The notes under the pieces were generated by a model that did not search any database, was not told the DNA's origin, and saw nothing but the letters and a program-made list of their open reading frames with translations. 64,000 nucleotides of DNA from Terebella lapidaria (taxonomy: Eukaryota > Annelida > Polychaeta > Terebellida > Terebellidae): NCBI GenBank assembly GCA_949152475.1, contig OX424561.1, positions 28,080,481 through 28,144,480 of the forward strand, in the 5' to 3' direction. A program made the translations under genes and the position numbers. This document shows, piece after piece, positions 4,251 to 58,714 of this stretch; position 1 is the stretch's first letter, and each line of letters begins with the position of its first letter.

Positions 4251-7200
4251 TATGCAAGACCTTCTCTGTCCCCGACTAAGCCATTTTCACGTGGTGAGAT
4301 GGTGAGTAATGATTATATCATTGTGAATGCATTATCAGACAACATATTATATCAGAAATGTTTTTGTTTTGTTTTAGTTCTCTAACACTAATAATTTTAT
4401 TATACCTATTTTAAATAGTACATTTTCTCCACCTTGTGTTTATATGGTAAATTACACATATGAAAGTCGAGTAATGGCAATTAAGTGATGTGTAGATTTT
4501 GTTTAAAAATTCATAAAGTACAGAATACCGTATATTAAACAGCTATAATATAAATACTACAAATAAGTGTGAATAAATGTATATGACAAAAGTTATTTCA
4601 AATCTGTCAACAAGTTTTTAACCTGTATAATAATAAATTACTAGAGCTGTCATTATTTGGAATGTACCTCACTATCCATGCAATGGATACAACAGGAACA
4701 AATCCCACTGTTATGGTGTAGGGATTAGGTTTTCCTTTCAGCGACTAGGGGACCTTGAAGATGCTGAAATCAGTGACCAGGGGGCATCCAGTTGTAGTAT
4801 TGTGTTATCTCATTAATGAGTTTATATTCCAGAAGAGAAAACTAATATTGTTCCTATGGTTGCTGTTTTCATAAGAATATAAATGATAACAATCTGATGT
4901 CATTCGAAGGGGTACGAGACTCACACCCCTTCATGAAATACCTATGTTTACTTGGTTTAACTGATGATCACTTATATTATTATATATTTCATTTCATAGT
5001 TTATTTAATGTTTATCTTCATGTTTTTGTTCAATATCCAGTGATGAAACATTGTACATGTACAAGGGTGTAGGATTAAAAAGGTAGGTTATGATTTGTCT
5101 CAAAAGGTCATAATGGCTTGGTGTTGTCATGGTCCTTTGTGTGGTATGTGGTACGCATGTAAATATTGAAGGGTGTCTCTGTATGTAACTTCTCTATCAG
5201 TATCTGATTTTCAAATCTGTACTCTACTCTTTGAAGTCTTGCATGTTTTATGTATTGGCTAATACAAACGATAAACTTGATGTACATAACATGTCTTCAA
5301 TTGTATAGATTCATTTATAACATAAGTTGCATTGATTGTGCAATAATTTTTGTTGGGTGTACATAGGTAATAATATATTAATACTGTATGTATTTGGAAG
5401 TAACTTGCCATGCATTGCTTGGCATATATGCTGGTATGATTGCGGGTCTTTATAATATTTATAGTCAATGCCAAACATTTGACACATTTGCATGTTCGTT
5501 ACCCTGTGACATGTGTATGTTTCACCATGGATACTTGGTCTGATAATCACATCATCTCTGATATTTATGCAGGTGATTATATTGAATGTTCTCTTCCAGA
5601 ATCGGCACTGTTTTTCTTCAGCATGTTGGTTATTTCTCTATCCATGCTTAGGCTTGTTCATTTTTCTTAGGTTATTAGACACCTGGTCTGATAACCTCTT
5701 GACATGACTGTGTCATCCACAGACTTTAGTCAATTCATTCATCATAGGCCGCGTATGTTGTAGATGTACTTATCCCTTCTGGGCCCCTATCTTTGGCTTT
5801 TTCATGTGTGCACTATGCTAAGATTCTTTTCTACTGTGTCTGTCACAGCATTCTTCTAACATACAATTGCTGGCTATAGAGCACATTTTGGAAAAAAATT
5901 TAAGCTTTGTACATATATCATGATATGTTAAAAACCACTAAACTTTTAGCCTCATAGTTCATCCAAAATTTGTAGTAATTCAGGAACTGCTCCAAACTGT
6001 TGAAAAAGCCACTTGTCTTGTACTAACTCTGTACTTCATGTAGGAATCACTGAAGTCATTTGTCCAGCGGGGCACCAGCAGACCGAGATTCGGGGGAAGC
6101 TTGAGTGCAGTCAAACCAAGCATCACACCCCGACGTAGTGCGGCAGTAAATCTGGTGAGCCAATGCCCAAATTACTACATGTATTCATAATTGGAATGAA
6201 ATGTTATCTGCTCAAACCTGTGACACCAACTTTTATTTTGCAGACTGAACTATCAGATTCTGCTTCCCTCGGTTCTGGGACCACTGGACGTGAAAGCAGA
6301 AGTGTGTCGCGCCGTGACAGCCATGCATCCATCGATGACAGCCGTGCATCCGTTGATGGCAGCTTTGCTAGAAGTTCTGCCTCGGTAACATTTTACTGAT
6401 GTGCTTGCAGTAGCGTTAGATGTAGTGGAAATTAGGCATCCTGGTAGAAAATTGGGAGGTCTTATTTTTTTGTTTTTTTTTCCGGATGATAACTCTAAAT
6501 GCCTTGACCTACTTTTTCAAATAGGTTAGTTTCACTGGTTAGATTTGTAATTGGCCACAGTAAAAATAGTTAAGACATTGCCAAATCAAATACAGTATTC
6601 AAGGGTCTTTGAATAGTTCTGTGCAAACATTTTCAAAGCTGTTCCTTTGAGGCCAGTGGCCCTTGTTATATTATACAACCTTATTTATTGTTATCTCATC
6701 TTTTTTCTGCTGCTTAGAGATTGTCAGATTTTGTATCCTTAGGAAAAATATATGTGCTTATTTTAGCAAGACAAAGTTACTTTGTCCATGTGTTTCATGG
6801 ATTTATAAAGCATACATGTGTCAATATAAATCTAAATTTCCAACACTCCCAGGTGTCAACGTTCAAGTCTGACGCTGTTCCATGGCTTGAACCTGGTATC
6901 AAGCAGAAGAGAAAGGTAAATACACATATCAGGCACAAATGTGAAATATTCAAGTAGCAAGTATGTCATAACACTGCCAATTATTTCCTCACTAGTGAGT
7001 GGTCCCTATTGGGCCTCAGACACTGGAGTGTAATATTTTTGAAATAAGATGTAGGGTTATAATACCAATTAAAAAATAACCCCACACTCTTTTCTCTTCC
7101 CATAGCCACTGTCTGCTGAAGTGTCGTCTCCCTGCCCAGGACCCAGTCAGCCAGATCAATCTGGAGCTGATGTGGATGGTGGATCTCTACAGGTAATGGT

Positions 7201-10200
7201 ATTGGTTCACAGTACAAAACAGTGAAATATTGAGTTTCAAAATGTTACAAACTCTAATATATCAAGTCACTATTTAGTGTTTATACATGGTCTGACAAAT
7301 GTAGTAACATGATAACATGAGCTGTTGATGTGTGTACCCTCTTGTATTTTCTATGTGTCAGAGATCATTTTTTATTGTATATGCTGTACTTATTGTATTT
7401 GCAGGCGACAGATCTTCCCTATCTCTGGGCTGACAACCTTCCTCAGCAAGATCAGAAGTGGATCATGAGGGCACTCTTCAAGACTGGGGCTCGTGGGAAG
7501 CCAGAACTGGTGGACAACCTTCAGCTATGGTATCAGCCTCCACAGCCTCTGCTGGTCTACAACCAGCGTGCCTCACCAGACCGTTTTTTTGCACGCCCCC
7601 TCCTCCTGTGGATGCCATATCGTTTATGGCGGGTTCGGGTGTGCTGTCCGAAGAAGGAGTGTGGTGGCCAGGTCTTGACGAGTGGAGGTGTTCACAGGAG
7701 GGCACGTCAAGTTCTGGACATTGACGGCTACTACCATTTGGTGACAGAGGTGCTGACATGTCCACGCTGCAGAACTCCACAACTGTCGTGGAATGACGTG
7801 GTTCTGGATCAGCTGGACGTCGGACACAGATCGATGTTCAGGCTGATCATGACACGGAAGTAAGTACCATCAAATTATACTTGCCATTGCAATATTTTCA
7901 AACATATGGAGAGTTGAATAATTGGATACATTTATATAAAATGCAGTATGTGTTTAGCAGGTGACACATTCTAAAAGTTGTTTCATTTGATCAGAAGTAT
8001 ATTTCTGTGGTATGTTTCAAAATGTAAACATTGTGTTTATGAGGTATGCCTGTGACATACGGGTCATCCGCCTGATGAGAGAGAGGACGCTCGGGAACAG
8101 CTCGACCCGGCTGATGAAGCAGGTCAGGGAGCAGCACACGGAGGAGTGGCTAGAACGTACCACACGGTACCTGACAGAGTGTGCTCCCTTCGTGGATCAG
8201 CCGGGTTTGAGTCAGACCCCATTCCCTGACCCACCACCTCCAGCAGTCGTCCCCAGCTTCAGGTGGATGATCAGTGTCTACGGAAAAGACATCCTCACAA
8301 GACTCGATGAGGTCAAAGCTTCCATAACAAGTACATTTGGGTCCATTTTGAAGCTGGATTCCACTGTGAAGGTGTGTATAATTTTGTCTGATATGCTGAC
8401 TATTGAAAAATTTTACATTGTGAATTGCTTCAGGTATCAGAGAATGATAAATCTTTGCTATACAAACATAGCTGTTGAAGTTCTTCGATCAGAATTTCTG
8501 AATGAGTAAAATAAGTGTGTCCAAGTAATACACTTTAGTCGCATGTATAAAATATGCAGTCAACATTTCCTCTACCTCCATAGATTACGAAGAAGCTTGC
8601 AGGGAAGGCCGCCAACACCGCCCGCTGGATGACGTCCATCAGCAATGAGCGAGGAGAGGTGTTGGTCAGCTGACGGCGTCAGAAGGACCTGGACTCGACA
8701 GGATGGCTCAAGGATTGATGGCACGATACAGACATGCTGGCGTCTCCCCTCCAGACATACTGTATGTCGACACAGGTTGTTGCGTCACCACAGAGGGAGA
8801 CACCAAGCTGGAGGAAAGGTTTGGCAGCTGGCCGGATGTACGGATCCGCCTGGACATCTGGCACTTCATGCGGCGTCTAGCAGCTGGAGTCACGACAGAT
8901 GCGCACCCACTGTATGGCATCTTTATGTCCAGGATGTCAGCCTGTATCTTCGAATGGGACGCCGATGACCTGGATGACCTGGTGACTGCGAAGAAGGCCC
9001 AGCTCCGCAGGGAAAGTGTGCCGGACCTCACCAGGGAACGTGTCCTTCGTCTTGTATCGAAGGAAGAACTGGCTCTGCACTGCCGCCGTCGCACTCGTGG
9101 AGTTGGAGTCACAACCGCGTTGCTGGAGAAGCTCGTCAACGAGTTTTCAGGGCCTAAGGGCTGCGACACCCTCGGTCTGCCTCTGCTGGACGAGAGAAGG
9201 ATGCCCACCATCTGGAGGAATCAGCAGAAACATGTAGCCTGCATCCAGGACCCTCCAGAAGTCAACCTGTACACAGCCACCGGGACAGTGAAAAAAGGGG
9301 GCATTGAACTACAGACTTTCAGGTGTGCGCGAGGCTCAACTTCGCTGGAATCGTTTCACCTCCATTTGAACCGATTCATACCAGGTAGGTTGTAACACTG
9401 AAAACAAGATATTACATGTACCAGATATTTGAAGTTGTTACATGCTCCTTCATATGGAAACAGAAAACTCAACACAAGCCATTTTTATCACAGGAACCAG
9501 TGCCAACGCGGTCAACTTCCAGGCGTATGTCCTGGAAGGCATCTTCAGGTGGAACCAGGACCGTGCAGCTGCAGCCCTAGCAGAAGCTCCCTCAGAACAC
9601 TTCAGGTGCTACTCCCCCGGCCTCCTGAATGCTGTGAACACCTTGAGCCAAAAAGTGCTGCAGAAGAAGCTTGTGACACACTTCCAGCCCCCCGGTCAAT
9701 ACACAGGTACATGCATCATTTCACTGAATAGTAGTGTAAAGTACTTTTTACTCTAAGTCCTCTTAATAAAAACATTTGGGTAAAACTTTGGCATTAAAAA
9801 GAGAGGGACAAAAACGTGCTATTGTGGAGATCCCCTGTTTTTGCCATGCAACACACATTAGAGATTTATCCATGGAATATTTTGACACTGTACATGTACT
9901 TCTTTTACAGTAATACATTGATATCCTAATTATGTACTTCAGGTGAACTCCTTGGTGTCGAATATCTGTTCGCACAGACAGGCCAGCCTCTACAGGACAT
10001 GTCGCTATCCAATGATGCCACGATGGACCTATTGGAGGATGTCCAGGAGTTGGAAGAGGAGGTACTAGATAAGCTGGATGTGCCAGATCACACCATTGGT
10101 GCCCTGACAGCAGAGGATGGTCTGCTGCCTCTGGATGTAAGTGATACTGACCAATGCATAAGATAAGCAAATTCAGCCACATTTTGAGTACACAATTTGT

Positions 10201-13156
10201 GAACTACAAATATATCTCAAGTTCAGTGCAAGCTATCAGACAGCCGTAATATTGGATAAATCAGCATTTTAGGTTGAATACTTCAATCTTTCATTTTGCA
10301 TGCCCCCCCCCCCCCCCCCACCAACAGGTTTACCCAAATCCACTAGAGGGGAGTGTAATCCAACCCCAAACACAAAGTAGCCATGTTCCCTGCAGTTACC
10401 AGGTATGTAGAATGATATGTGGGCAACAGATTGCAACGAAATTATAACACATTAGTTTTGAATATCTTGGTGGTCCTGATGCACAAATCCATGTTTGTTT
10501 TGATTGCCAGCAGGTTGAACCACTCACAGACCAGCCGAGACGGCCTGTCGATCGGCCTGTTCCCTCTCGTTCTGAGGTAAAATTCACAACATGTGGAACA
10601 GATTGCAACCAAATTATAACACATTAGGTTTGAATATCTTGGTGGTCCTGATGCACAAATCCATGTTTGTTTTGATTGCCAGCAGGTTGAACCACTCACA
10701 GACCAGCCGAGACGGCCTGTCGATCGGCCTGTTCCCTCTCGTTCTGAGGTAAAATTAACAACATGTGGAACAGATTGCAACCAAATTATAACACATTAGG
10801 TTTGAATATCTTGGTGGTCCTGATGCACAAATCCATGTTTGTTTTGATTGCCAGCAGGTTGAACCACTCACAGACCAGCCGAGACGGCCTGTCGATCGGC
10901 CTGTTCCCTCTCGTTCTGAGGTAAAATTAACAACATGTGGAACAGATTGCAACCAAATTATAACACATTAGGTTTGAATATCTTGGTGGTCCTGATGCAC
11001 AAATCCATGTTTGTTTTGATTGCCAGCAGGTTGAACCACTCACAGACCAGCCGAGACGGCCTGTCGATCGGCCTGTTCCCTCTCGTTCTGAGGTAAAATT
11101 AACAACATGTGGAACAGATTGCAACCAAATTATAACACATTAGGTTTGAATATCTTGGTGGTCCTGATGCACAAATCCATGTTTGTTTTGATTGCCAGCA
11201 GGTTGAACCACTCACAGACCAGCCGAGACGGCCTGTCGATCGGCCTGTTCCCTCTCGTTCTGAGGTAAAATTAACAACATGTGGAACAGATTGCAACCAA
11301 ATTATAACACATTAGGTTTGAATATCTTGGTGGTCCTGATGCACAAATCCATGTTTGTTTTGATTGCCAGCAGGTTGAACCACTTACAGACCAGCCGAGA
11401 CGGCCTGTCGATCAGCCAGCTCCCTCTGGCTCAGATGTCGAGTTAAAGGTATGTAATACATTTGTACACACAACTAATCGGATCAATAAATCTCAAAGAC
11501 AAATTATTGAACCAAACTTTGGCAGTTCAAGTATATTCACTGAAGCATATAATGTGTAAAACTTTCTTTTTTCACTTAATTTGAATGAATATCTGACTGA
11601 GTATCAAATAATTTGACTTTTTTGACAAGGTTATTGATTTAGTTCGTAGGTTACAAGAATGGACATGGTGCCTGGGTACCAGCAGGTTGACAATTTGACT
11701 GGTTACCTGGTGGAGCTTGAGCAGACAATCCCCGAGCACAACCTGTCCCTCACCGACGAGCAAGCGCAGGAAGTCGTCAGGCTGTGGGGACAGCTCCTTC
11801 GTTTCGACAAGGAGCGAATCCAGTATGCTGCCCGTGGTCGCAAGGCCTCCCCCACAGGCCGCTTCAAGACGTCTAAGAGGAGGGACACGGAAGTGCCTGG
11901 GACCGATGTCAGCACCAAGTAAGTCAAACATCTCCACAGTGAATAGTGATCACTATAAAATTCACACATGTACACTTTTGCACATGTTAATCCATGGATC
12001 TCCACAAGATGACAAAAAGTGACTTTCACTGTGTATGTATGATTTTTGCTCGTTGGATATTCATATGTTTGTTTCCATGCCTTCTTTTTTAAGGAGCTCC
12101 ATTGGCAGTGGATCTCCAGCCCAACACCCAGACTGTTGTCGAGTGGTGGAGTCCTTGTGCATAAAACTCTGCTTGATGTTCACCAGTCCAAAGAAAGTAG
12201 AGGGCAGGACCATCACAAGGTGGACGAGGATCATGCAATGCTACAAGCGGATCCGAGAACTGATCCTGGCGAACCACTTTGTCATGTCGAACACCACTCT
12301 ACAGCTCGTGGAAATCAACCAGTATACGCTGACACAGTGGTAAGATATTTGTTATCAGCTGCAAAATTTTATCTTGCATATTTCTCATGTTTCTAGGCAA
12401 TGGAACCCATAATGTCATTTCCCAGCAAAATTTAAATTTCATGTTGATGGTAAATAGAACTGTGGTTACAAATTACACAAAAGCTGCTACAGCATGGTGT
12501 TGATACTGCATGTCCAATATATATTTTGCTTTGATCCTAGGCACAACAAGAGGCAGGACCTGAAGGAGAGAGCCATCTTGACACAAGGCCTGTCGCTGCC
12601 AGAGGCTCGTCCAGTAGCAGAGGAGTCCCTCCCACCTGCCGCATCCAGAGCAGCAGCTCCCCCCCACCATGGTCTCGCTCCGCACCGATTTGTGTTGCCT
12701 GCCAACACTTCCGGACAGGCTCCAGTCCGGGGCAGGCAAGGGCTTAAGGAGAGGCCTGGGCCACGTGTCGCCCTTTTCCAGGATCCAGTGCCCCTTGTGC
12801 CTGTAGCACCAACAGCATCTTCATGCCGTGCTCTGCCTGTGCACATACTGCCCCGCCAAGACGCCACACCTCCAATGCAGGCTGCCTCTGTTGGCACAAG
12901 CAGCACTCCAGCTGGATCAGTCAGCATGTGTCGCACGTCACAGTGGAGGAGGAGAAAGCAGCAGCAGCAGCAGGAAGCTGAAGGCCGGCCCCAGAAGAGA
13001 CCATACACGAGGTCAAATCCTCACAACAAGTGCGGAAAGTGTGGCCAGCTCAGAACCACCGACACGGGTCACACCCAGTACCGTGGCCAGTGGTACTGTC
13101 CTCGCGTTGAGGAAGTCTCAAAGGAACAGTGGCTAGCAGACAAAAGGAAGAAGTAG
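4251..13156 (+). CDS. DUF6729-family protein with transposase-like core, about 20 exons, one frame break
   Basis: Exons with matching phases: 6044-6154, 6244-6384, 6853-6915, 7106-7192, 7405-7859, 8044-8371, 8584-9384, 9494-9706, 9943-10136, 10328-10402, five copies of a 63-bp exon (10514, 10686, 10858, 11030, 11202), 11374-11448, 11650-11918, 12094-12339 and 12541-13156 (stop TAG). An exon at 4251-4301 is possible; the true start codon was not found. The order is a Ser-rich N-terminus, the DUF6729 cysteine domain, an RNase-H-like core, a repeated Pro/Arg linker, a helical region and a C-terminal zinc knuckle. From 6044 the exons sum to about 1330 codons if one missing base is allowed. From memory, the order matches large multi-copy proteins of fish and invertebrates that carry DUF6729. 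Function is unknown; a transposon-derived origin is inferred. In exon 8584 the frame stops at TGA 8671 and the family motif resumes in another frame. Confidence 0.78.
7405..8371 (+). other. DUF6729 cysteine-domain exons of the gene at 4251-13156
   Basis: Two exons (7405-7859 and 8044-8371, joined in phase 2) encode the most recognisable part of the family. The first carries WMPYRLWRVRVCCPKKECGG and, later, a CPRC pair, so it looks like a zinc ribbon. It is followed by a conserved helical part with RLMRERTLGNSSTRL and by a stretch ending KLDSTVK. The donor at 7860 (gtaagt) and acceptor ending at 8043 restore one lysine codon. Family recognition is from memory of DUF6729 proteins; zinc binding is inferred from cysteine spacing. 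Confidence 0.75.
8584..9706 (+). other. Transposase-like (RNase H-like) core exons of the DUF6729 gene
   Basis: Exons 8584-9384 and 9494-9706 contain, in order, YVDTGCC, RLDIWHFMRR, LHCRRRTRG, ACIQDPP and GSTSLESFHLHLNRFIPG, then a segment with AVNFQAYVLEG and RWNQDRAAAA. The first two aspartates and the glutamate of SLESFH have the order and setting of a D-D-E triad in RNase-H-fold transposases, including a D-x-x-H pair after the second strand. That reading is inference. The exon begins in one frame (motif SNERGEVLVS), meets TGA at 8671, and continues as LTASEG in another frame. One base (modulo 3) appears to be missing near 8668-8671. Confidence 0.65.
10403..11448 (+). repeat. Tandem array of a 172-bp exon-plus-intron unit inside the DUF6729 gene
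   Basis: A 172-bp unit recurs with exon starts at 10514, 10686, 10858, 11030, 11202 and 11374. Each unit holds a complete intron ending in tgccagcag and a 63-bp exon beginning VEPLTDQPRRPVDRP. Every exon copy has AG before it and GT after it and is a whole number of codons in phase 0, so any copy number keeps the reading frame. Copies 2-5 are virtually identical in both exon and intron. The first intron and the last exon (11374-11448, 75 bp) are diverged and mark the ancestral edges of the array. Confidence 0.92.
11650..13156 (+). other. C-terminal exons of the DUF6729 gene with zinc knuckle
   Basis: Exons 11650-11918, 12094-12339 and 12541-13156 encode a helical conserved part (VRLWGQLLRFDKERIQ; PDCCRVVESLCIKLC; RWTRIMQCYKRIRELI), then low-complexity Pro/Ala/Gln sequence. 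The end is KCGKCGQLRTTDTGHTQYRG followed by QWYC, which spells C-x2-C ... H ... C and looks like a zinc knuckle. Phases 2 and 2 match across both introns, restoring AAG and TGG codons. The stop is TAG at 13154. The order fits the C-terminal half of the same multi-copy family. Confidence 0.75.
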
Positions 13157-13200
13157 CAACTGTTTCCATCACATCAGTTTCCATCACATCTATAATTCTA

Positions 13201-13257
13201 CAGCAGTGTGATTATAGTATCAGCAGTGTGTATCAGCAGTGTGATTATAGTATCAAA
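13201..13257. repeat. Short tandem repeat just after the DUF6729 gene stop
   Basis: About three imperfect copies of cagcagtgtgattatagtat lie 45 bases after the stop codon, presumably in the 3' untranslated region. Confidence 0.7.
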
Positions 13258-13279
13258 AATTGCTCTCACATGCCTCTGT

Positions 13280-13957
13280 GATGTGTATAGGTTTCGTTGC
13301 CCCTGAATCGCCGGTCGGCGTGTAGCGGCCATTTTCATTTTCTCGACATGTCCCAAATGGGACTTTTCCATGTTAAATTCTCCTATGCTTTATAATGGGA
13401 CACATTATGCCTAATATCTCACTTAGTATTGAGATTAGCGACTAGGAATCAATTATGGACACATAGGAAATGATATTGTTCAAATATTGTGATGACCCTG
13501 TTTTGACCTTTGACCTCATTTCCAAGGTCAAAGAAGAAAATGACTAATATCTCGCTTATCATCGACTTTGCAACTTGAGAATCAATTGTGGACTGATAGG
13601 AATTTATGTATGCTGAATATTGTTGTGAGCTTGAATTTGACCTTTGACTTCATTTTCAAGGGCTCACAGGACAACTTAGCTAATATCTTGTTTGTTATGA
13701 AATTTACAACTTAGGATTCTGTTGTGGACACCTTTTATTTGACTTGATCTCATTTTCATTATGTCACAGGATATAATGACTAATATCTGTCTTATTACTG
13801 AATTTACAGCTTAGTAAGCAGAACTTTGTGAACATATAGAAAATCATATATGCTGAATACTCTCGTGACTTTAAATTTGACCGTGGCCTTATTTTCAAGG
13901 CCACGGGACAAAATAGGGAATATATATTGGTACCCTATCTTTGCCCTCGGGCTAATT
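13280..13957 (-). mobile_element. Sat133 satellite transposon, reverse copy
   Basis: It starts in the right-hand domain (ttcgttgcccctgaatcg, then gcggccatttt and the 'tcccaaatgggactttt' segment). It runs through about four diverged 133-bp monomers and ends at ctatctttgccctcgggc followed by taattttt near 13955. The terminal hairpin side is missing. It lies about 120 bp downstream of the DUF6729 gene stop. Confidence 0.8.
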
Positions 13958-16900
13958 TTTGTCATTTGTAGATTCACTGGATTTCTTCAATAAATATGTG
14001 TGCATACATGAGTGAGCGTCGTTCTGTCGGGCAATACAATATTACAGTAGCATGGTAAAGCAAGTCAAGAAGTGTACAGAGTCAAATTCATTACCAACTG
14101 GACAGAAGAGTGGCTAGTAAAGAGACATACAAAGGACAATTGAGAGTAATAGAACACTAACTTCTCTGGCAACACAAATGAATGGGGATTGCAAACACAT
14201 AAAATATCCAGTTGTGCATTGTTCTCTGAAAAACTGATGATATGGATTAGATTTGTAGCACTGTAACCAGTAAATATTATTCTTATGAGTGTTTTCCCAT
14301 ACTGTTGTATAATACATACATTATGTACTATACTGATAGCATTATCCAAAGTGTCGCCTATTGATTTTCGAAGAATGGTCTACATATGAAGAAAATGTTA
14401 TGAAATTCCATTGACTTCTTTTAGGCACAATTTATATTATAGTATACTCCAGAATATAGTATAATCTAAATCTGCATAAACAATACTACATTATGGAACC
14501 TCACTTTCAAATAAAACATTCATTTTTAAAAGTATATTAATATTTAACAAAATGTACTTGAAATATCAATATTTTAAATTATATCACAACTAAATTTGAA
14601 ATATTTCTCTAATGTGATAAATATAAACACGACCTTTATTCAGACAATGGAGAGTAATTACAAAAAAAGAAATACGTGCCGAGGCTACATTACAAATTAA
14701 TATGTGGTACTGTAAATTTATTATGTACTAGCACCTGCGATGCTATTCGTTGCATAACACTGGTTGTGCCCTGTACGATAACAACACTCAGCAGGCAAAT
14801 ACTGGCCAGTAGTATTGCAACAATCACTCGTGTGGATGGAAACACTTTGCCATTAAAACACGTGCGCCCATCCTAGTTTTTCCGTTATCATTTTCCTGGT
14901 ATTATAACATAACCTGTTTTTTTTCAACCAGTGCCCCGATATTTGCTCTTGATCCTGGCATTTGCATTTGGCCTCGGGCTAATCCAGATCTCGGGCAAAT
15001 ATCAAGGCACATACTGGTAATATTTTTCATACTGTTCAAAACATTGTAGATCTACATGTTTTTTTATACACCCAGTCACATTGCAAATCAGTTTCATTGG
15101 AACGATAATAGACCCTTTGTGGCAATATATCCTCATAATGTTGAACAATTTATTTTTAAAATGGGTATCTCATTGTTGTTTTTGTTTTATTGCAGCTCCA
15201 ATACAGTCTTCAAATATAGTAAATCTATCACGGATAATGGTTTGTGAATAGTCGTGTTTGTTCTCAGGACTTCCATACATCGTGTACAACAACCACACAC
15301 GAACGTTTTGTTCTTGCTGTAACAAAGTCCCCTGTTGTACTCTGACTGTAAAGACATTTATAACTCAGGCTAAAATGACGGATTTTGTGATATATTAACC
15401 CTAATTGTACACATAAATACTGTAAAAAACACCCACATTCTTTCATTCTCTTTCGTTTCTTTTTTCTTCTCTTTCTCCCCTTCTTCCCCCTCCATACAGT
15501 CGATAGCTATAGCGTTCTGTGTGATTCAACGCTGGTTCTGTGTGAATACAGGCGTGATGGCCGACATGTAAGATAGTCTCTACCAGAAATGATGCTGTAT
15601 TGTGGCCAATCATAAGTGATGAACCTAACAATTATGTCTATTAGTTGCATAAACAAGTACTGTTTAGAAATAAGTTGACTAGAAGTGAGAAATATGTAAC
15701 ATATTAATAGTGTTCACAGTTCAGCTGGTGTGTTCAGCAAAATGTTGTGGAATAGCTGACAAAACAAATGAAATCTAAATGAACAAATGTTGTTCATGGT
15801 GCAATTAGCTGATAGAACAAACGATATGTAATGATATTCGAACCTATTAGGTGTTGGCATAATAATTGTGCACAGGTTACAGTAAATCTGCTTATTAGAG
15901 ATTCTCCGCCGGTTCTGGGTGATGGCAACACCGGTTCTGTGAGAGTTTACGAATATAACGAGCTGGCAATTGCACATTTTTCGTGGTATGAAAAAGCATG
16001 ACTAAGTTGACTATACTTTATATACTTCCACAGCCCAACCTTGAAAGAGGAAAAAAGTGCACCCATCCGATGCAAATGGATTAAAGCGAAAAAAAAATTC
16101 AAAAACCGCGAGTACATACACCATTTAAATGGATATACCCTCTAAAACGAATAATTAGACTTTATCGGTAATTTTCGGAAACACAATTGTATTCCGGCAT
16201 TATCACTCTATATCTGTATAAAACCCCAAATGAAGACTGCAACGGGAAGCTGCACGTGAAGGGGCCATCCATTTCATGACAAACTGTTCCGTCTATTATG
16301 TTTCTGAAAATTGACTACTAGCTATCATCCAGTCACCGGGCCATCGGACACTAAAGTGGTGTATCTACATGTATTAGAATTTATATGTGGTTCGTCCTAC
16401 CTGATGAAATGTGTTTCATCACACGTAATCTAAGTGTACATGCTGGTCATAAACGGTTTGATCATTTGACTTGAGTTCAAAGTTCACATAGAACCAGCGT
16501 TGCCTTAACCGGCGTTGACATGAAAAACCTTTGATTTCTTTAATTTTCATAACGATTTGTTCAAGCTCACACTTGCCAATCATTTCTGGCGTTTACTAAC
16601 ATATATTCGGCATACGAGCGAATCATGAAACCAAAAATTGGCCCCAAAATGTGTTCAATATTTCGAGATAGTTGTCAAAACTTTGAAACATATTGAAAAG
16701 TTTCTTCTAAAAAACGATGAAATGCGTATATTTATCACCCGTAAGTTCGTATGAATCATTGTTGTTACATATTCCAACTAATAGAACACTCCATTAGCCA
16801 GCATATAACTTTTAACCTTGATTTGTGACAGTTATCATCATGTGTATGACACAGTATGACAACTTTTACTTACAGAACCAGCTAGTTGTCTCACAGAACG

Positions 16901-18210: not shown

Positions 18211-20478
18211 GTAATGTAATGTAATGTTTATTCAGAACCAATCACCCACATATTCATATATATACATACATTCGAATTCATTTTTCGAATAAAATATAAA
18301 ATTGCCTTGATAAATGAATGTTTTCATCATACTGACAGATTGGGGCTTCAGTATATGTGGGTTATTACTTTGCCTAGTATTATGAGAGTGAATTTCACGA
18401 TTTGACGTGAATATCGAGAGGGAGGCGGTAGGCTTTTGTTGGTGAACTGGTACATAAATTTGGCTAACTGAATAACATATCGTTTAGTTTCGGAATTTTC
18501 AGTTTAGCAAATAAGGGTGTAGTGTGATCACTGTAAGCTGCTTTCGTTATATTCCGGACACACTTTTTCTGTAGTATTTCAATGCGGCGAAATTGTGATT
18601 TGGGAGCTGAACCCCATAACATTATCCCATATAATAGGTGAGGATGCACTAGGGAGTAATACAGAAGCCGTAAATTGGCTGATGAAAGTATACGTTTCGA
18701 AGCAGTAATGGCATATAGACCGCTAGAAATTTTTCGACATTATGTGTTGAATTTGCTCATACCACGTGAAACATTCGTCTATATAGATCCCAAGAAATTT
18801 GGTGCATTTCAATCTAGAAATAGATTGAATACCCAATCGTAGATGTGTAATGTTTTTCGCTTTGGTTTTGGAAATATGCAAATTTGATATGATGAAATTG
18901 TTTTTTTTGGACATTTAGCGATAACTTGTTCGCAACAAACCAGTCCGCCAATGAGGATAAATCCTCTTCCATATTGGTGCATAGTTGATGTATATCCGGA
19001 GATGAACAGTATAAAGTGGTGTCATCGGCAAATAAAATACACCGCGAGTGTTTGAGAATATTGGGAAGATCGTTCATATAAATGATGAATAATAAGGGAC
19101 CGAGGACGGATCCCTGAGGCACACCGCAGGAGACGTTATGATTAGTGGACACAAATTCCTTGTATGCGACATATTGTTTTCGATTAGTGATATAGCTTCT
19201 GAACCACTCCAAGGCCACACCCCGCACGCCATAATGATCGAGTTTTTTCAGCAAAATTTCATGATCGATAGTGTCGAAGGCCTTGGAGAGGTCCAGAAAG
19301 ACAGATAATGCTATTTCTTTACTTTCTAGTGCTTTATTAATGTGTCCCATATATGTTACGACTGCATCGATAGTCGAGTGGTTAGGTCGAAAACCAAACT
19401 GATTTTCGAAAAGAATTGAATTTTTGACACAAAGAGAGTAAAGCCTGCAATGAACTACCTTTTCCAGAACTTTACATATAGATGGTAAGAGGGATATTGG
19501 TCTATAGTTACCGAATTCGTTTTTATCTTTTGATTTGTAGATTGGTATGACTTTAGCAATTTTCATACTGTCGGGAACAATTCCGTATTGCAATGATTTA
19601 TTTATTATTTTACTAATCGGTATTGATATGGACAAATTTATGGATTTTATTAGCTTGGAGCTGATATTAGCTTGGAGCTGATACCGTCATGCCCATGGCT
19701 TGTTTTATGCTTCAGGGAGGATATAATTTTTTCAATTTCACCTCGGTCTGTTGGGGACATGAAAAAAGACTTACATATTCTCGCTGAATCCAGGTAATTG
19801 TGAAACGGCTGATTCGGGGTACCGATTTTGTTAGCATACTTTGGACCAATTTCCGAAAAATATTTACAAAATTCATTTGCTATAATTGTTTTGTCACTTG
19901 TTAGTTCGTTTCCTATTTTGAAGGTGTCCGAGATTCCAGATTTATTCGGTGTTTTCCGTATGAGATTATTAATTAGGTTCCATGTACGCCGGGAGTCATT
20001 TTTGAGGCTTTGAAGTTTATCAGCATAATACTTCTCTTTACAAGTCCGTTTGATTTGATTATACTTATTTCTATACTGTACATACTTGCTGTGTTCTTTG
20101 TTATCCTTTGGTTTCCCCAGACATTGTTTGTATAACTTATCGCGGGTCTTGGAACTTCTTAATAAAGAAGAGGTCATCCATTTTTCACGTATCATGCACT
20201 TACCTGGTATATTTTTCACTGATTCTGGCATAAATCGGTCCATTGCAGACAGTATTGTATCAACTAGAGCGTCATTCGCTTCGTTAACGGATAGATTGTC
20301 GAGAAAAGACCAATCAGTACTTTGTAGGAAAGAAGCTAGTTGGTTTATAGTATCAACATCAAATGGTCGATACTTTATAGAAACTATTTGTTTTTCAATT
20401 ACTTTCCTTTGGCCAAGTGACGTGAAAATTGGCAGGTGATCCGATATGTCAGTTGTTATGATGCCCGATGCAAAGCCC
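18211..20478 (-). mobile_element. LINE, CR1/L2/Jockey-like, 5'-truncated and decayed reverse transcriptase
   Basis: Read on the minus strand it has SDHLPIF (end of the endonuclease, near 20440), then a linker, then the reverse transcriptase: NYRPISLLPSICKVLEKVV, FGFRPNHST, FLDLSKAFDTIDHEI, CGVPQGSVLGPLLF and FADDTTLY. The C-terminal part has KFLGIYIDE and YYSLVHPHLLYGIMLWGSAP. The 3' end is a short (ATTAC)n tail at 18211-18225 just after AATAAA, typical of CR1/L2-type elements. Three frame breaks are visible: a 17-bp tandem duplication at 19649-19682, an A-run near 18900 and an A-run near 18732. Most of the endonuclease is missing. The exact clade is uncertain. Confidence 0.88.
19649..19682. 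repeat. 17-bp tandem duplication in the LINE reverse transcriptase
   Basis: attagcttggagctgat occurs twice back to back (19649-19665 and 19666-19682). It shifts the reverse-transcriptase frame immediately after HGHDGISSKLI. Confidence 0.95.
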
Positions 20479-20749
20479 TGATCTTAGTACATATATAGCG
20501 CTGGAATACCTGTATTTAAATTGGTATGCGGAATATTACAAGATAAAAAATAACCTGTATAAGTTATAATGTACGATGTGTACATGTACCACATAGAAAG
20601 CTGTTCATCAATACTGATTACATACATACTTACAGAAACATATAACACTAGTGATATGGAGATATGTAGCAAAGTGAGTGCATGGGAATTTGTGACAATA
20701 CTATGCATAGACTTAAGGTGGTATCAGTTCTCTTGATGTGATTACTGAT

Positions 20750-21883
20750 TCAGCTTCTGGATGGCGTTTGTTGCGAGTTGTCACATCGTCCCCCGATGTG
20801 CACGAAGTTCGTGTGACAGGTACGTAATATGGCGAAACAGACAGTGTTCACGATCTTATGCTGGCGCATGTGCTTCAGAAGTGAGAGTCCAGTGGTCCAA
20901 TCCCGGTCGGAGTTGAAGTTCTCCTGGATCCTGCCCCGTGTACCTTGCAGGCGATAGGCCATGATAATGTGATTGGCATTCTGGACATCCTTCTCGTTGA
21001 TGATCATATGCTGTCGGACTTCAGCAATATCCGTGAGGGACTCAACTTGCGCACTGAAGACCTTGAAGGAGCTGCCACCCTCAGTCTTCTTGCTCGAAGC
21101 TAAGGTCGGCGGCGCCCCGTCATCTCCACGGTTAGGAACATCGGGTAGGACAGGCTTGAGATATTGTGTTTGGAGCTTGTCCTTCACGTAAAATTTGTCT
21201 TTGGTCAGCCTTGCTTTATTTTTCTTGTCCCCTTTAAGTGACTTATATTCATTATATACAAACTGGCGTCGTTCTGCTGTTGATGGAGGCAACGGGGCAT
21301 TGATTGAATGACCAGTGTCTTTCAGGCGGGATGCTGAGCCGAGAACTAGTTCTCGCTGCTTTGTGATTGGGATTCTGGCGATTATGGATGGTATTTTACC
21401 GGGCGGTGGTTTACCAAGTCTATGTGCAGACTGGATGTGGACGTCGGTAGTGATGCCTAACACGTTGTGGAAAAAGGCTAAGGCAAGAGCAGCGCAGTCT
21501 TCACCCTCTGCTGCATTGTAGTCAGTTGCGTCATCACTGAACGAAATGGTGAGGTTATCTCTCATAGATAGAGTTTTCAAATTCTCAATTTCACCATCTT
21601 GAAGATTTTCTGCAACCTGGAGGCGTGTGACTTCTGCCCTCAGCTTGTTCACTTCTGTGCAAAGTGATGCCACCGCAGTCTTCAGGTCGGTCTGGGTTTC
21701 CTCAATCTTGGTTGTACGGGCGTCAATGCTGGTCTTTTCGTTCATGATGGACTTGATCCCGAGCCATACCAGCGACAGAAGCTTGGTGTTGTTAGGGACC
21801 TCATCAGATCTTAGAGCCTCTTCGAGATCCATGATGGTTAAATTTGACATTCTGAATTGTTGTGGAAGGCACTGTTTGGGCAC
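20750..21883 (-). CDS. LINE ORF1-like protein with C-terminal IMPACT/UPF0029-like domain (377 aa)
   Basis: One open frame of 377 codons. Residues 45-105 form a heptad-rich coiled coil (KTAVASLCTEVNKLRAEVTR). Residues 107-190 resemble the RRM of L1-type ORF1 proteins (RDNLTISF, HIQSAHRLGKPPPGKIPSII, ARIPITKQRELVLGSA), and 195-240 its C-terminal domain (RQFVYNEYKSLKG, FYVKDKLQTQYLKP). Residues 268-372 (FKVFSAQVESLTDIAEV, ANHIIMAYRLQGT, TGLSLLKHM, NTVCFAILRTC, VHIGG) align in motif order with the YigZ/IMPACT N-terminal fold (UPF0029). The role would be nucleic-acid binding in a retrotransposon particle; that of the extra domain is unknown. It lies upstream of the LINE RT on the same strand, but the 270-bp gap holds no endonuclease, so the two may belong to different elements. 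A start at residue 12 is also possible. Confidence 0.75.
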   Translation of the reverse strand: MPKQCLPQQFRMSNLTIMDLEEALRSDEVPNNTKLLSLVWLGIKSIMNEKTSIDARTTKIEETQTDLKTAVASLCTEVNKLRAEVTRLQVAENLQDGEIENLKTLSMRDNLTISFSDDATDYNAAEGEDCAALALAFFHNVLGITTDVHIQSAHRLGKPPPGKIPSIIARIPITKQRELVLGSASRLKDTGHSINAPLPPSTAERRQFVYNEYKSLKGDKKNKARLTKDKFYVKDKLQTQYLKPVLPDVPNRGDDGAPPTLASSKKTEGGSSFKVFSAQVESLTDIAEVRQHMIINEKDVQNANHIIMAYRLQGTRGRIQENFNSDRDWTTGLSLLKHMRQHKIVNTVCFAILRTCHTNFVHIGGRCDNSQQTPSRS

Positions 21884-22423
21884 CGTAGTTTTGGAATGAT
21901 CTAGCGTACTTGACGGACAGGTCGTACTGGGTACCTCTGGGACACAGTAGTTATTGGTCGATCGAACGTGGCTGGTTGACAGACGCTTGGTCAGTGCGAT
22001 TGTTATACAAGTGCCTACACAACTAAGAGTTCACTGGACCGTGCAACGTGTAAACATAGGGTAATGGCGGGAGAGAATGTCAAAAGTTGTTGCTACAAGT
22101 CACTGAATGTCAATGGATATTCACAATCATTCCTTCTGGCACTGACTGAACTCACCACGCAATATGAACCACAGTAGTTTTAGCAGGGCTCATAAAAACA
22201 TATATGTTCATATTCCAAACGATTTCAACATATTTTGCTATATTCACAGGAGCTTTAGCTAACGTACGTGCTATTACAGTACTGCCATCTTGGTTGAAAG
22301 CTTGAAAATGCCGTTAAATTGGACACTTTTTATTTTTTAAAACAGTTTTTGTATATCATCATCGTGTATGGATGCTATAATTCATTAAAAACATCGTTTA
22401 TATACTTGAAATCACCATATTAA
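21884..22423. other. Upstream flank of the ORF1-like gene
   Basis: No coding signal is seen. 21884-22190 is moderately GC-rich and could be the 5' untranslated region of the LINE that donated ORF1. The rest is AT-rich and unrecognised. Confidence 0.35.
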
Positions 22424-28570: not shown

Positions 28571-30065
28571 AAGGTCTTGGCAATATTCAGCATATATCAT
28601 ATTCTATATGTTCACAATTGATTCCTAAGCTGTAAAGTCGATAATAAGCGAGATATTAGTTATTTTGTCCTGTGGCCTTGAAATTTAGGTCAAATGTCAA
28701 ATTCAAGGTCACGAGAATAATCTGTATATATCATTTCCCAGTCCCAAAATAAGTTCTGTCTCGCCTTACGACGCACCGCTTCCGAGACATGGCCGAAAAT
28801 TAAAAAAAAATGCCAACTCAGCAAAAAAGTGGCTTATGGCCAAGTTCACCCAAATACCCCTAAGTCATGTTCGTCTAGTGCCACGATTCCGAAAATAACG
28901 CCCGTTTCACTTTACGACGCAACGTCGTGAAACAAGAGATACCAAAAAGAAGATGTCTATGACAGAAGCACAGTTGAAGAAAGCTAGGGAGTCGGAGAGT
29001 GTTATTGGAGGCATTCAACCAATACTGTGGCTTGCTAAATCGATTAAGGAAAATACTGCTTCTACTACCCCAAGACATGATGACATTGAACTGCGAACAC
29101 GCGCTTTTGAAGAATGTAAGGAAGGTCGTGACAAGGAGATTGAAGAACTGTTGGGCTCTGTCAAAGCACTACAAGGGCAAGTGCAGAGGTCCAAACAGAA
29201 ATATGCAACAGTGTTCTTGTCATATGTCTGCGACAATGACGCGATCACTGATGGAGGGAGCGGCTTCAAGGGCTCCAACGCACAGTCATTACCACACTGG
29301 AAGAGATAGAAAAAACTCCAACAAAAATTTCTTGTTGTCCCAACATTGTAACCAATACACATCGTGATCACTGCCCACATACTTCAAGGGAATGGTGGCA
29401 CGCCTGATGACTGGGGCACAGGCCATGAACTACCCAAGATGATGAGGCAAAGCAACATCGTCGACTGCCTCTGCATGGCAACTCAGTGTTGTAGCCCAAA
29501 TTATGGACATATCGGTGAGAAAAAGGTTTGATCACATAAATACACTGTATATAGACACTTACAACTTACAACATGTAAGCCGCTTAGATATACACTGTAT
29601 TTAACCCTGTATGTAATGCTGTTTATACACTGTATGTGAGGCGCTTAGATATGAATAATTAAAAAGAAAGTAAAATGTAACTGCTAATGACCAACACTTA
29701 CTTGGAAACTAGAAAATTTAGCCCAAAGGCTAACTAAAGATAGGTTACCGGCCAATATGTGTTTTATATTTTAGATATTAGCCATTTTGTCCCGTGACCT
29801 TGAAAATGAGGTTAATGATCAAATCCAAGGTCAAAAGAATATTAAGAATTTATCATTTCTTATATGTCCTCATTTGTTTATATGTCCTCATTTTGCTAAA
29901 CTGAAAATTCAATAATAAGAGAGGTATTAGCAATTTTGTCCTGTCATTTTGTCCTGTCACCAGAATGTTCGGCATATATCTTTTCCTGTATGTTCACGAT
30001 TGATTCTCAAGTTGTGAAGTCGATAATATACGCGATATTTGCGATTTTGTCCGTAACCATGAAAT
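28571..30065. repeat. 1.5-kb tandem duplication, copy 2
   Basis: Second copy of the preceding unit. Beyond about 30065 the sequence departs and continues as ordinary Sat133 monomers. Confidence 0.93.
28953..29309 (+). pseudogene. Coding-like fragment, 118 codons, copy 2
   Basis: This is the same frame as at 27452-27808, changed by one residue (ALHGQ to ALQGQ). It arose with the tandem duplication. Confidence 0.4.
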
Positions 30066-30412
30066 TGAGGTCATAGGTCAAATTCAAGATCAAGACAATA
30101 TTCAGCATATATCATTTTCCTATATATTCACAATTGATTCATAAGCTGTACAGTCGAAAATAAGCGAGATTTTGACTATTTTGTGCTCTGACCTTGAAAA
30201 TAAGGTCAGAGTTTAAATTCATGGTCATCGAAATATTTGGCATTTATCATTCCCTATATGTCCACAATATATTCCAAAGCTGCAAAGTCGATAATAAGCG
30301 AGATATTAGCCTTTTTGTTCTGTAACCTTGAAAAAATAACGTCGAAGGTCAAATTAGATTATTTGGCATATGTCATTTCCTATATGTCCACAATTGATTC
30401 CTAAGCTGCACT
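30066..30412 (+). mobile_element. Sat133 monomers, continuation
   Basis: About two and a half monomers (aattcaagatcaagac, tgaccttgaaaataaggtc, attcctaagctgcac). They stop at about 30412 without the right-hand domain. Confidence 0.75.
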
Positions 30413-33486: not shown

Positions 33487-36400
33487 AAAATTAGCCCAAG
33501 GGCTAAGAAAGGTTACCGGACAATATATATTTTAGATATTAGTATTTTGTCCCATGACCTTGAAAAAAAGGTCATTCGTCAATTCAAGGACACAACAATA
33601 TTCGGCATATGTCATTTCTAGTATGTCCACAATTGATTCCTAAGCTGTAAAGTCAATAATAAGCGAGATATTAGCAATTATGTCCTGTGACCTTGAAAAT
33701 GAGGTCAAAGGTCGAATTCAGAATCATAGCAATATTCAGCATATATCATTTCCTATATGTTCATAATTGATTCCTAAGCTGTAAAGTCGATAATAAGCGA
33801 GCTATTAGCCATTTTGTCCTATGACCTTGAAAATTAGATCAAAGGTGAAGTTCAAGGTCATGACAATGTTCAGAATATATCATTTTCTATATGTCCACAA
33901 TTGATTGCTAAGCTGTAAAGTCGATAAAAAGTGAGATATTAGCAATTTCATTCTCTGACCTTGAAAATGAGGTCAAAGGTCAAATTCAAGGTCATGAGAA
34001 CATTCAGCATATATCATTTGTTATATGTCGACAATTGATTACCAAACTGTAAAGTGAATCATAAGCGAGATATTAGCCATTTTGTGCTGTGACCTTGAAA
34101 ATGAGGTGAAACGTCAAATTCAAGGTCATCAGAATATTCGGCATACCTGGTATATCATTTCTTATATGTCCACATTTGATTTCTAAGCTGTAAAGTCGAT
34201 AATAAGCGAGATAATAGTCATTTTGTGCTAATGACCTCGAAAATTAGGTCAAAGTTCAATTTCAAGGTCATCAGAGTATTTGACATATATCATTTCGTAT
34301 ATGTCCGCGATTGATTCCTAAGCTGTAAAGTCGATAATAAGCGAGATATTAGCCGCTCTGTGCTTTGACCTTGAAAATAAGGTCAAAGGTCACATTCAAG
34401 GTCATGAGAATATTCAGCTTATATCATTTCTTATATGTCCACAATTGATTTCCAAGCTGTAAAGTGAATAATAAGCAAGATATTAGCGATTTTGTGCTCT
34501 GACCTTGAAAATGAGGTCAAAGGTTAAATTCAAGGTCATCAGAATATTCGGCATATATCATTTCCTATATGGTCGATAATAAGCGAAATATTAGCCATTT
34601 TGTGCCCTGACCTTGAAAATGGGGTCAAAGGTCAAATTCAAGGTCATGAGAATATTCAGCATATATCACTTTCTATAGGTTCACAATTGATTCCCAAGCT
34701 GTAAAGTCAATAATAAGCGAGATATTGGTCATTTTGTGCTCTGACCTTGAAAATGTGTGTTAAACAGGCTAATTTGAGCACAAAATATGTCGCCAATCGG
34801 CCAATTTGGTTGCTATGGCAACCAAAATCGATTGGTGTCGGGATCTTACCATAAGATGTGTCTGTATAAAAAATATTAGAATCGGTTAAGATTTGCAATC
34901 TGTAGAGCGTTCACAAGAAAATCTCTACGGCAGACGCGACGGCGGCGCGACGGAGACAAATCCATAGTATCCGCCGAACTTCGTTCGGGGGATACAAATA
35001 GATTGTTCACAAGCCATGTGTGTTAAACAGGCTAATTTGAGCACAAAATATGTCGCCAATCGGCCAATTTGGTTGCTATGGCAACCGAAATCGATTGGTG
35101 TCGGGATCTTACCATAAGATGTGTCTGTATAAAAAATTATTAGAATCGGTTAAGATTTGCAACCTGTAGAGCGTTCACAAAAAAATCTTTACGGCGGACG
35201 CGGCGGACGCGGCGGCGGCGCGACGGAGACAAATCCATAGTATCCGCCGAACTTCGTTCGGGGGATACAATGAGGTCAAAGGTCAAAATCAACGTCATTA
35301 GAATATTCGGCATATATCATTTCCTATATGTCCACTATTTCTTCCTAAGCTGTAATGTCGATAATAAGTGAGATATTAGCCATTTTGCTCTGTGACCTTG
35401 AAAATGAGGTCAGAGGTCAAATTCAAGGTCACGAGAATATTCAGCATATATCATTTCCTATATGTCCACAATTGAACCCTAAGCTGTAAAATCGATAATA
35501 ATGTAAGTATCAATCTATTACTACCAATACAATCAGATTTTGATGATGCCAATAAGAAACGTAAAATATAACATTTTGCAATAGAAACAATGCCCGACCA
35601 AATAGTTTATAAGTGAGATATTAGCCATTTTTTGTCCTGTGACCTTGAAAATGAGGTCAAAGGTCAAATTCAAGGTTATCAGAATATTCGGCATATATCA
35701 TTTCCTATATGTCCACAATTGATTCCTAAGCTGTAAAGTCGATAATAAGCAAATATTAGACATTTTGTGCTCTGACCTTGAAACCAAGGTCAGAGAATTC
35801 AAGGTCACGAGAATATTCAGCACATATCATTTCCTTCATGTCCACAATTGATCCCTAAGTTGTAAAATCGATAATAAGTGAGATATTAACCATTTTGTCC
35901 TGTGACCTTGAAAATGAGGTCAAAGGTCCAATTCAAGGTCATCAGAATATTCGGCATATATCATTTCCTATATGTCCACAATTGATTCCTAAGCTGTAAA
36001 GTTGATTATAAGCGAGATATTAGATATTTTGTGCTCTGACCTTGAAACCGAGGTCAGAGGTCGAATTCAAGGTCACGAGAATATTCAGCATATATCATTT
36101 CCTATATGTCCACAATTGATTCCTAGTCTCTAATCTCAATATTAAGTGAAATATCAGGCAGAATGTGTCCCATTATAAAGCATAGGAGAATTTAACATGA
36201 GAAAGTCCCATTTGGGCCGAGTTTGGGCCCAAAATGGCCCACTTCGAGCGATTCAAGGGCAACGAAACTTATAAACATCGTAAGGGTACATATGAAGAGT
36301 GTTATGCATCAGTAAGAAAAAAAGTTATCGAACAGATTTTGAGAAAATGGCCGCCAAAGTCCAAAATCAGGCATTTTCCGTCAAAAACGGCCGCCATTTT

Positions 36401-36575: not shown

Positions 36576-38230
36576 AAAAACGGCCGCCATTTTGAAGCAA
36601 GCGATTCAATGGAAAATCGAAAAAAATACCACTTTGAGAGCTCTTCATAAGGAACATTTACACAAAATTTTCTGCGCCCACAGACGGAAGGATGGACGTC
36701 CAAACATTTCAACGCCAGGGGCTTTTCCTATGTTAAATTTCTATCTAATGTGCCGGAATTAGCCCCTAAAACAGCGAAAAATTAGCCCAAGGGCCAAAGA
36801 TAGGTTACCGGACAATGTTTAATATTTTGGATGTTAGCCAGGTCACTGGTTGAATTCAAGGTCAAGAGAATATTCAACATATATAATATTAAGCATATAT
36901 CATGTCCACAGATGATTGCTAAGCTGTAAATTCAATAATCAGAGAGATATTAGCAATTTTGTGCTGTGGCCATAGAAATGAAGGGGCAAAGGACAAATTC
37001 AAGGTCATCAAAATATTCAGTGTATATCATTTTATATATCATGTCCACAATTGATTCCCAAGCCATACAGTCAATAGAGGAGCAATGTAAGTATCAATAT
37101 AGCCAAATTTTGATGATTAAAATAACAAACGTATAATACAATTTGCAATAGAAACAAAACCCGACCAAACAGTTTAACAAAAGACGCACTGGCGTCATCA
37201 GGGGCAGACATGGTGCTAAATGTAGTTGTTTCTACTGTACACCTGATGGAATTAGTATACAACTGCCTAACAACCTATGAAAATACTTTAGAAATCCGAA
37301 ACAAACCCCATGGAATCGATATATTACAAGTACATAGGACGTAGCAAGATATGACGTAGCAAAATATGAGGCAGTTTGTCCTTGGACCTTGAAAATGAGG
37401 TCAGAGGTCAAATTCAAGGTCACGAGAATATTCAGCATATATCATTTCCTATATGTCCACAATTCATCCCTAAGCTGTAAAATCGATAATAAGTGAGATA
37501 TTAGCCATTTTGTCCTGTGACCTTGAAAATGAGGTCAAAGGTCAAATTCAAGGTCATGACAATAATCTGCATATATCATTTACTATATGTTCATAACTGA
37601 TTCCTAAGCTGTAAAGTCGATAACAAGCGGGATATTAGCCATTTTGTCATATGACCTTGAAAATGGGGTCAAAGGTCAAATTCAAGGTCATCCGAATATC
37701 CAGCATATATCATTTCCTATATACCCACAATTGATTCCTAAGCTGTAGAGTCGATAATAAGCGAGATATAAGCCATTTTGTGCTGACCTTGAAACTGAGG
37801 TCAAAGGTCAAATTCGAGGTCACGAGAATATTCAGCATATATCATTTCCTATATGTCCACAATTGATTCCTAGTCTCTAATCTCAATATTAAGTGAGATA
37901 TTAGGCATAATGTGTCCCATTATAAAGCATAGGAGAATTTAACATGGGAAAGTCCCATTTGGGCCGAGTTTGGGCCAAAATGGCCCACTTCGAGCGATTC
38001 AAGCGCAACGAAATTTATAGACATCATAGGAGTACATATGAGGAGTGTTATGTATCAAAAAGAAAAAAGTTACTGAACAGATTTTGAGAAAATGGCCGCC
38101 AAAGTCCAAAATCAGGCATTTTTCGTCGAAAACGGCCGCCAATTTGAAAAAAATGTGAAAATCAATGCGAAAATCAAAAAACTAAAAAATACCGAGATTA
38201 AATATTCTGATGGTCAAGTTGAAGGTCACC
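36576..38230 (+). mobile_element. Sat133 copy, partly interrupted
   Basis: The left end attagcccaagggccaaaga is at 36781. Monomers follow to about 37860, broken at 37080-37380 by the aatgtaagtatcaatat segment also seen at 35503. The right-hand domain (tcctagtctctaatctcaat, 'cgagcgattcaagcgc', 'gaaaatggccgcc') runs to about 38200. The terminal hairpin is absent here. 36580-36770 resembles the right-hand domain of an older copy into which the preceding element may have inserted. Confidence 0.7.
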
Positions 38231-47817: not shown

Positions 47818-47830
47818 TTCTGATGTTTAC

Positions 47831-58080: not shown

Positions 58081-58714
58081 GTCAGCTTCAATACAATTCT
58101 GTATGGTTAGTCAATCTTAGCTTGTTCACACAATGTATGAGACCGTAAATATATGTGGCATACGAAGGCCTACAGAGACTTACATGTATTCTCCGCAAGT
58201 TCTCCGAATACGTTAACACATTCAATGTTAATTGGCTCGACATGGAGGTCTATCCGGTGTTGCGAGAACAAATAAATTTCGGCAAGCACACCACATGAGC
58301 GACAAAATTATTTCTTTGTATGTAAATGAACCTAAATCGCTTTGTGCTGCTGGGTTTCGGAATGCCCAATTGGGTATATCATCGAAGAAGGCTTCAGACA
58401 ATTTTACCAGTATTTCCATCTTTTATGCTCCAAAAACATATCTTGCAATGTTTTAGTATGCCTATTTTTCTTTACGAAATTAACAATGACTATATAGTTG
58501 CCTAATTGTCTGCAGCGTATAATCACACCTTATCCAATCAGTACACTTTATAATATTACACCAGAATAATATCAACCGGTGTTGCTTGTTTCGTTTTCGA
58601 CCTTTGCGGTTTTATTCACATTGTTATTTGTCCATTAGGTAAACCGTCTTTTACTGACTCTGAAGTCTCGTGACATAATCTTGACATACACGACCACCAG
58701 GGAAATATGTCATT
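58081..58714. other. Intergenic stretch upstream of the LINE
   Basis: Two mutually antisense short frames (58228-58419 and 58232-58456) and nothing recognisable. One of them must be a shadow and probably both are. Confidence 0.4.

Follow-up and report, generated by a model that had tools for sequence, protein, structure and literature searches.

In the present study, an array of small exons, each with its own intron, was identified in a 64,000-nt stretch (28,080,481–28,144,480) of contig OX424561.1 from the annelid Terebella lapidaria (hereafter, the window). We hold with good confidence that this array is a minisatellite spanning one phase-0 exon and its intron in a mobile-element gene of the DUF6729 family, and that it has the history proposed below. 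The array itself is real, and its regularity is far beyond chance.

The six exons of the array start at positions 10514, 10686, 10858, 11030, 11202, and 11374, a spacing of exactly 172 bp. Five full 172-bp units, each comprising a 63-nt exon and a 109-nt intron, are followed by a terminal exon, and TRF reported a period of 172, 5.8 copies, 99% matches, and 0% indels. The initial annotation had described six 172-bp units with exons of 21 codons. This description is correct for the five 63-nt copies, all of which are in phase 0. However, the sixth member is only a terminal exon of 75 nt (25 codons, 11374–11448); its downstream intron is not repeated, and the count is therefore five full units plus a terminal exon. 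The start of the array, previously placed at 10403, is similarly in need of adjustment: the intron before the array begins at that position (10403–10513, plus strand), its 3′ part matching the unit intron (96%, over unit positions 78–172), and the first unit starts at 10514.

Unit 1 (10514–10685, exon 10514–10576) differs from units 2–5 at a single, intronic position. No mismatch was found among units 2–5 (10686–11373; exons 10686–10748, 10858–10920, 11030–11092, and 11202–11264). The near-identity of the inner units, introns included, was thus confirmed. Since no change was present in 4 × 172 sites, the per-site change per copy is bounded at about 0.4%, and units 2–5 are either young or kept alike. 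This identity, as seen in one genome, suggests recent expansion or homogenization by conversion, both of which it fits equally well and both of which had been put forward in the initial annotation.

The five 63-nt copies encode VEPLTDQPRRPVDRPVPSRSE, while the terminal exon encodes VEPLTDQPRRPVDQPAPSGSDVELK. On inspection by eye, GT donors and AG acceptors with phase 0 on both sides were present in all six exons, and the intact splice sites reported earlier stand. The acceptor reads as a double one, CAGCAG; therefore, each array exon could start 3 bases earlier, with one extra Gln. The exon and its flanking intron are repeated head to tail, and the exons are symmetric in phase and contain whole codons (63 and 75 nt), which is the arrangement of a tandem exon duplication. 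The RNA folding of one unit was not more stable than that of shuffled sequences (z 0.24), and there is thus no sign of a structure that forces an exclusive choice of exon. The exact 17-base anchor used for the units had no minus-strand copies in the window. Coding on the minus strand across the array was considered and rejected; the open stretches reach only 70–117 aa and are by-products of the repeat.

The array lies in what we identify from the sequence as a spliced DUF6729 gene, a member of a dispersed family in this 761.6-Mb genome of 438 contigs. With a curated cut-off of 27 bits, the DUF6729 profile (PF20499) matched at 190.3 and 105.1 bits, over profile positions 1–145 and 141–229. Exon ends outside the array were placed by eye from the splice consensus and the open frame, and all of the exons are on the plus strand. 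Four short, Ser/Pro-rich, phase-0 N-terminal exons are predicted at 6044–6154, 6244–6384, 6853–6915, and 7106–7192. The first part of the DUF6729 domain is encoded by the exon at 7405–7859 (E 4.9e-56) and the remainder by that at 8044–8371 (E 5.5e-30). Exon 3, the putative catalytic region, follows at 8584–9384. Exons 4 (9494–9706) and 5 (9943–10136), the latter ending in phase 0, were placed with tblastn to sister loci. A 75-nt phase-0 exon (10328–10402) lies directly upstream of the array, and exons 7–9 (11650–11918, 12094–12339, and 12541–13156 with the stop) form the C-terminal part. High-copy repeats with matches on many contigs were noted at 6526–6668, in an N-terminal intron, and at ~13240–13963, just past the gene end.

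The host gene probably encodes a transposase, in line with the transposase-like protein proposed at the outset. This reading is based on the DUF6729 match and a weak fold match to the ISCth4 transposase. A profile search with exon 3 against PDB sequences returned one row only (E 0.53), and no Foldseek hit reached E 0.001. No convincing terminal inverted repeats were found for the window element: the inverted pairs comprised 21 weak ones of 16–30 nt with 70–88% complementarity, and a BLAST self-comparison of positions 4500–14500 gave no match on the opposite strand. Many copies of a diverged DUF6729 gene, equal in score, were also observed at C11:786327–844748, C1:23.07–23.13 Mb, C7:17.94–18.01 Mb, and on C194, often some 9–20 kb apart (up to ~39 kb), as if in tandem.

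The copy of the gene in the window appears from its reading frame to be broken in exon 3. This exon begins in the expected frame and then meets a stop at 8671–8673, a site that all seven sister loci examined (L034, L035, L038, L040, L042, L043, and L045) read through. The remaining exons keep their splice sites and frame by eye, and the break could be a sequence error. Because exon 3 is broken, the variable linker that the initial annotation envisaged is unlikely to serve in a working protein at this locus.

A genome search with one unit as the query located the unit at no fewer than three places, a count that is a lower bound: the window (on contig C7), C5:31164785–31165177, and a stretch from C6:27155690 on. 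Three units are present at C5 and two at C6, and types A, B, and terminal C may be distinguished and aligned across the three loci. The window array consists of five A units, no B, and one terminal exon. The first 63 nt of this terminal exon differ from the other copies at 8 sites: the first 40 nt contain a single mismatch to unit A, and the other 7 fall within the 23 C-like nt that follow. It is without the 6-nt insert common to C5 C and C6 C, and its 3′ end is of type C. We read the terminal exon as an A-C hybrid. Alternatively, its A-like start could be the ancestral state, and C5 C and C6 C would then have later changes in common; however, the closeness of this stretch to unit A disfavors this alternative. 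On the hybrid reading, the amplification of A to five, the missing B, and the hybrid end point to unequal exchange or conversion. Furthermore, C5 A and C5 B share a 12-nt deletion that neither the window A unit nor C6 B carries, which probably reflects conversion between units.

Since C5 and C6 hold pieces of the same array, the duplication is older than the window units look. The initial annotation regarded the process as caught in the act; this holds for the young run of A units, but not for the duplication, because C5 and C6 carry arrays with diverged units of these types. The diverged units at C5 and C6 also bear on the possibility that the true window locus has one or two units only. Identical units are a classic site of assembly error, but an array of ~1 kb is small on a contig of 43.95 Mb, and diverged units cannot be assembly copies. 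We consider an artefact of this kind very improbable.

The sequence may also be an ordinary non-coding minisatellite, the exon-like parts of which were never spliced in. The window is rich in tandem arrays, with 41 TRF rows, several of which have a 134-bp unit, and for one of them to coincide with an exon is less surprising here than it might be elsewhere. However, all five units retain intact splice sites, the adjoining upstream exon ends in phase 0 as well, and the four C5 and C6 exons measured (51, 51, 81, and 63 nt) are all multiples of three. We regard a purely non-coding origin as unlikely. The divergence of exons and introns hints at past coding use with little constraint at present: exons diverged less than introns in three older unit comparisons (0.118 vs 0.170, 0.118 vs 0.213, and 0.143 vs 0.211), whereas values were about equal in the youngest (0.059 vs 0.064), with small counts.

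The initial annotation used the term exon shuffling, which is not supported: the array is a tandem duplication within a single gene, and none of its exons was shown to join the reading frame of another gene. The array pieces at C5 and C6 lack most of the gene, as they might if the array moved between genes, and upstream the C6 piece adjoins sequence resembling window positions 6314–6514 (74% identity). However, this piece has the appearance of the same element after an internal deletion, and its type-C terminal exon has an insert with an in-frame stop by eye. At C5, the frame upstream of the first unit hits a stop ~50 bases away with no clear acceptor between by eye. No clear open junction was seen by eye at either place, and movement of the array between genes is extremely improbable.

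We propose the following origin for the minisatellite. The first tandem duplication would have occurred in an ancestor and produced an array composed of types A, B, and C. A short TATGT shared by the upstream intron (10416, with another TATGT at 10404) and the exon-C donor (11450) may have served as the site. From ATGTGG on, the unit intron agrees with the intron that precedes the array, and the first bases of the unit intron match the end of the terminal exon and its donor in register. Over 18 nt at the exon-C donor, the match to unit A in register is 11/18, a level reached at none of the 91 alternative offsets and at 37 of 20,000 positions drawn at random from the window. This agrees with a duplication of this kind followed by a shift of the donor. 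However, the unit intron itself reads CATGT and, of the two compared, TATGT is kept only in C6 B. We infer this TATGT step from a short match. After the duplication, the donor used would have moved 12 nt upstream in A and B, and the array would have reached C5, C6, and C7 within copies of the element. In the copy on C7, unequal exchange or conversion would have removed B, made the hybrid terminal exon, and multiplied A to five; the pattern is visible in the array, and we infer the exchange from it. Changes in unit number would have been free of frame cost because the exon consists of whole codons and is in phase 0 on both sides. The gene copy would since have lost the exon-3 frame, and the array now probably drifts without coding use.

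A second, unrelated array of this kind was found in the sister elements L034 (contig C2) and L035 (contig C8). Its 179-bp unit comprises a 93-nt exon (31 codons) and an 86-nt intron and precedes the DUF6729 exon. Nine units are present in L034 (945–2555) and four in L035 (gene strand, 895–1610); the two elements are 99.73% identical over a 7,396-column alignment covering the gene and part of the array. Nine and four units in near-identical copies indicate that unit number changes without breaking the frame, as the initial annotation had anticipated. Full 179-bp units were found nowhere outside L034 and L035 in a genome search, in which partial matches consisted of 65 bp at the edge of each array and 35 bp further on in each element. 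The units differ at few sites. L034 and L035 are near-identical copies of ~14.8 kb with abrupt ends on the two contigs, and we class the pair as mobile on this basis; neither terminal inverted repeats nor a target-site duplication was seen at their ends by eye. The close kin of the window element are fragments only.

Repeats are common in the family, and some arrays are confined to a single exon or open frame. L038 and L039 carry a 114-bp array of 2.5 copies in the same linker as the window array. In L043, a 45-bp unit is repeated 31 times in-frame inside the DUF6729 exon (gene strand, 1173–2572), where the close sister L042 has ~1 copy. Candidate coding arrays upstream of DUF6729 were noted in L040 (51 bp, 8.2 copies) and L041 (36 bp, 14 copies). 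A 39-bp array beside DUF6729 has 6.2 copies in L005, 9.2 in L004, 17.2 in L006, L007, and L008, and 22.2 in L009, with open frames of 510, 558, 653, and 754 aa, respectively. By translation, the array and DUF6729 are in one frame at 3/6 of these loci (L005, L008, and L009).

These repeats bear on whether the number of units is a selected trait that sets the length of a disordered region linking the catalytic part of a working transposase-like protein to its C-terminal part. The exons of the array are in phase 0 with whole codons, and repeats in the linker or N-terminal region recur in the sisters, among them the 114-bp and 39-bp arrays. However, exon 3 is broken in the window, divergence in the youngest comparison is similar for exon and intron, and the variable exon sites of the 179-bp array alter amino acids (R/C, S/R, and S/P). 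A selected linker of tunable length is, on balance, quite improbable. We also entertain, as a distinctly unlikely generalization from these sequences, that DUF6729 elements repeatedly array small phase-0 exons with their introns at several protein sites and thus have built-in variation in linker length between copies. If true, a mobile element would carry an exon-level length switch.

Other features of the window were recorded. Tandem arrays with a 134-bp unit occupy 29964–30408, 33534–34571, 35609–36154, 37364–37908, and 43192–43762; they are rich in AGGTCA half-sites, which we take to resemble nuclear-receptor sites. On the minus strand, a 310-aa open frame at 42154–43086 contains a repeat of 14 residues (TGTTEK-VEEA-DQ type), which derives from a 42-bp array, and 45111–47826 contains long open frames with a Cys-rich stretch that reads as RING-like, possibly an ordinary gene. 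Pieces of non-LTR retrotransposons were noted at 18817–22030 (minus strand; reverse transcriptase match at 18817–19686, E 2.2e-42) and 58685–61390 (plus strand; a 901-aa frame that is reverse transcriptase-like by eye).

The published exon arrays that we found lie in functioning cellular genes, whereas the present arrays are young and may be compared between near-identical copies of mobile elements. Their first steps, namely, duplication, donor shift, unequal exchange, homogenization, and copy-number change, may be read before selection or decay hides them. Moreover, the nine and four units of L034 and L035 would allow a direct test of how unit number affects splicing and protein length. Among open-licence PMC papers, we found none that names DUF6729, no report of exon arrays in this family, and no paper on transposase exon duplication with tandem repeats in a mollusc.

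Three known systems are comparable. LRR genes in Tetrahymena contain arrays of 90-bp exons that vary in number (PMC6564038). As in the present array, these exons are equal in length, share one phase, and have recently expanded in a clonal manner; close paralogues differ in unit number, and ectopic recombination was proposed. However, they belong to very many cellular genes and are in phase 2, whereas the present exons are in phase 0 in a mobile-element gene, probably encode a disordered linker, and have introns that are identical as well. In teleost piccolo b, one frame-0 zinc-finger exon was amplified 8 to 16 times in a species-dependent manner (PMC3484663). A single frame-0 exon of variable number is common to both cases; however, piccolo b is a cellular gene with a zinc-finger domain, and here near-identical units are in a broken mobile-element copy. 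The Argiope MaSp2 and flagelliform silk genes have iterated, homogenized introns (PMC9779670, PMC3522626). Their introns are also near-identical between similar exons, and unequal crossing over was proposed to homogenize them; in contrast to the large structural protein encoded there, the present host is a broken transposon copy. From its sequence, we conclude that the array is a tandem exon duplication that works like the Tetrahymena LRR, piccolo b, and spider silk precedents. As judged from the same data, it differs from them in its setting in a mobile-element gene, in the presence of two separate arrays in one family, and in its very young units.
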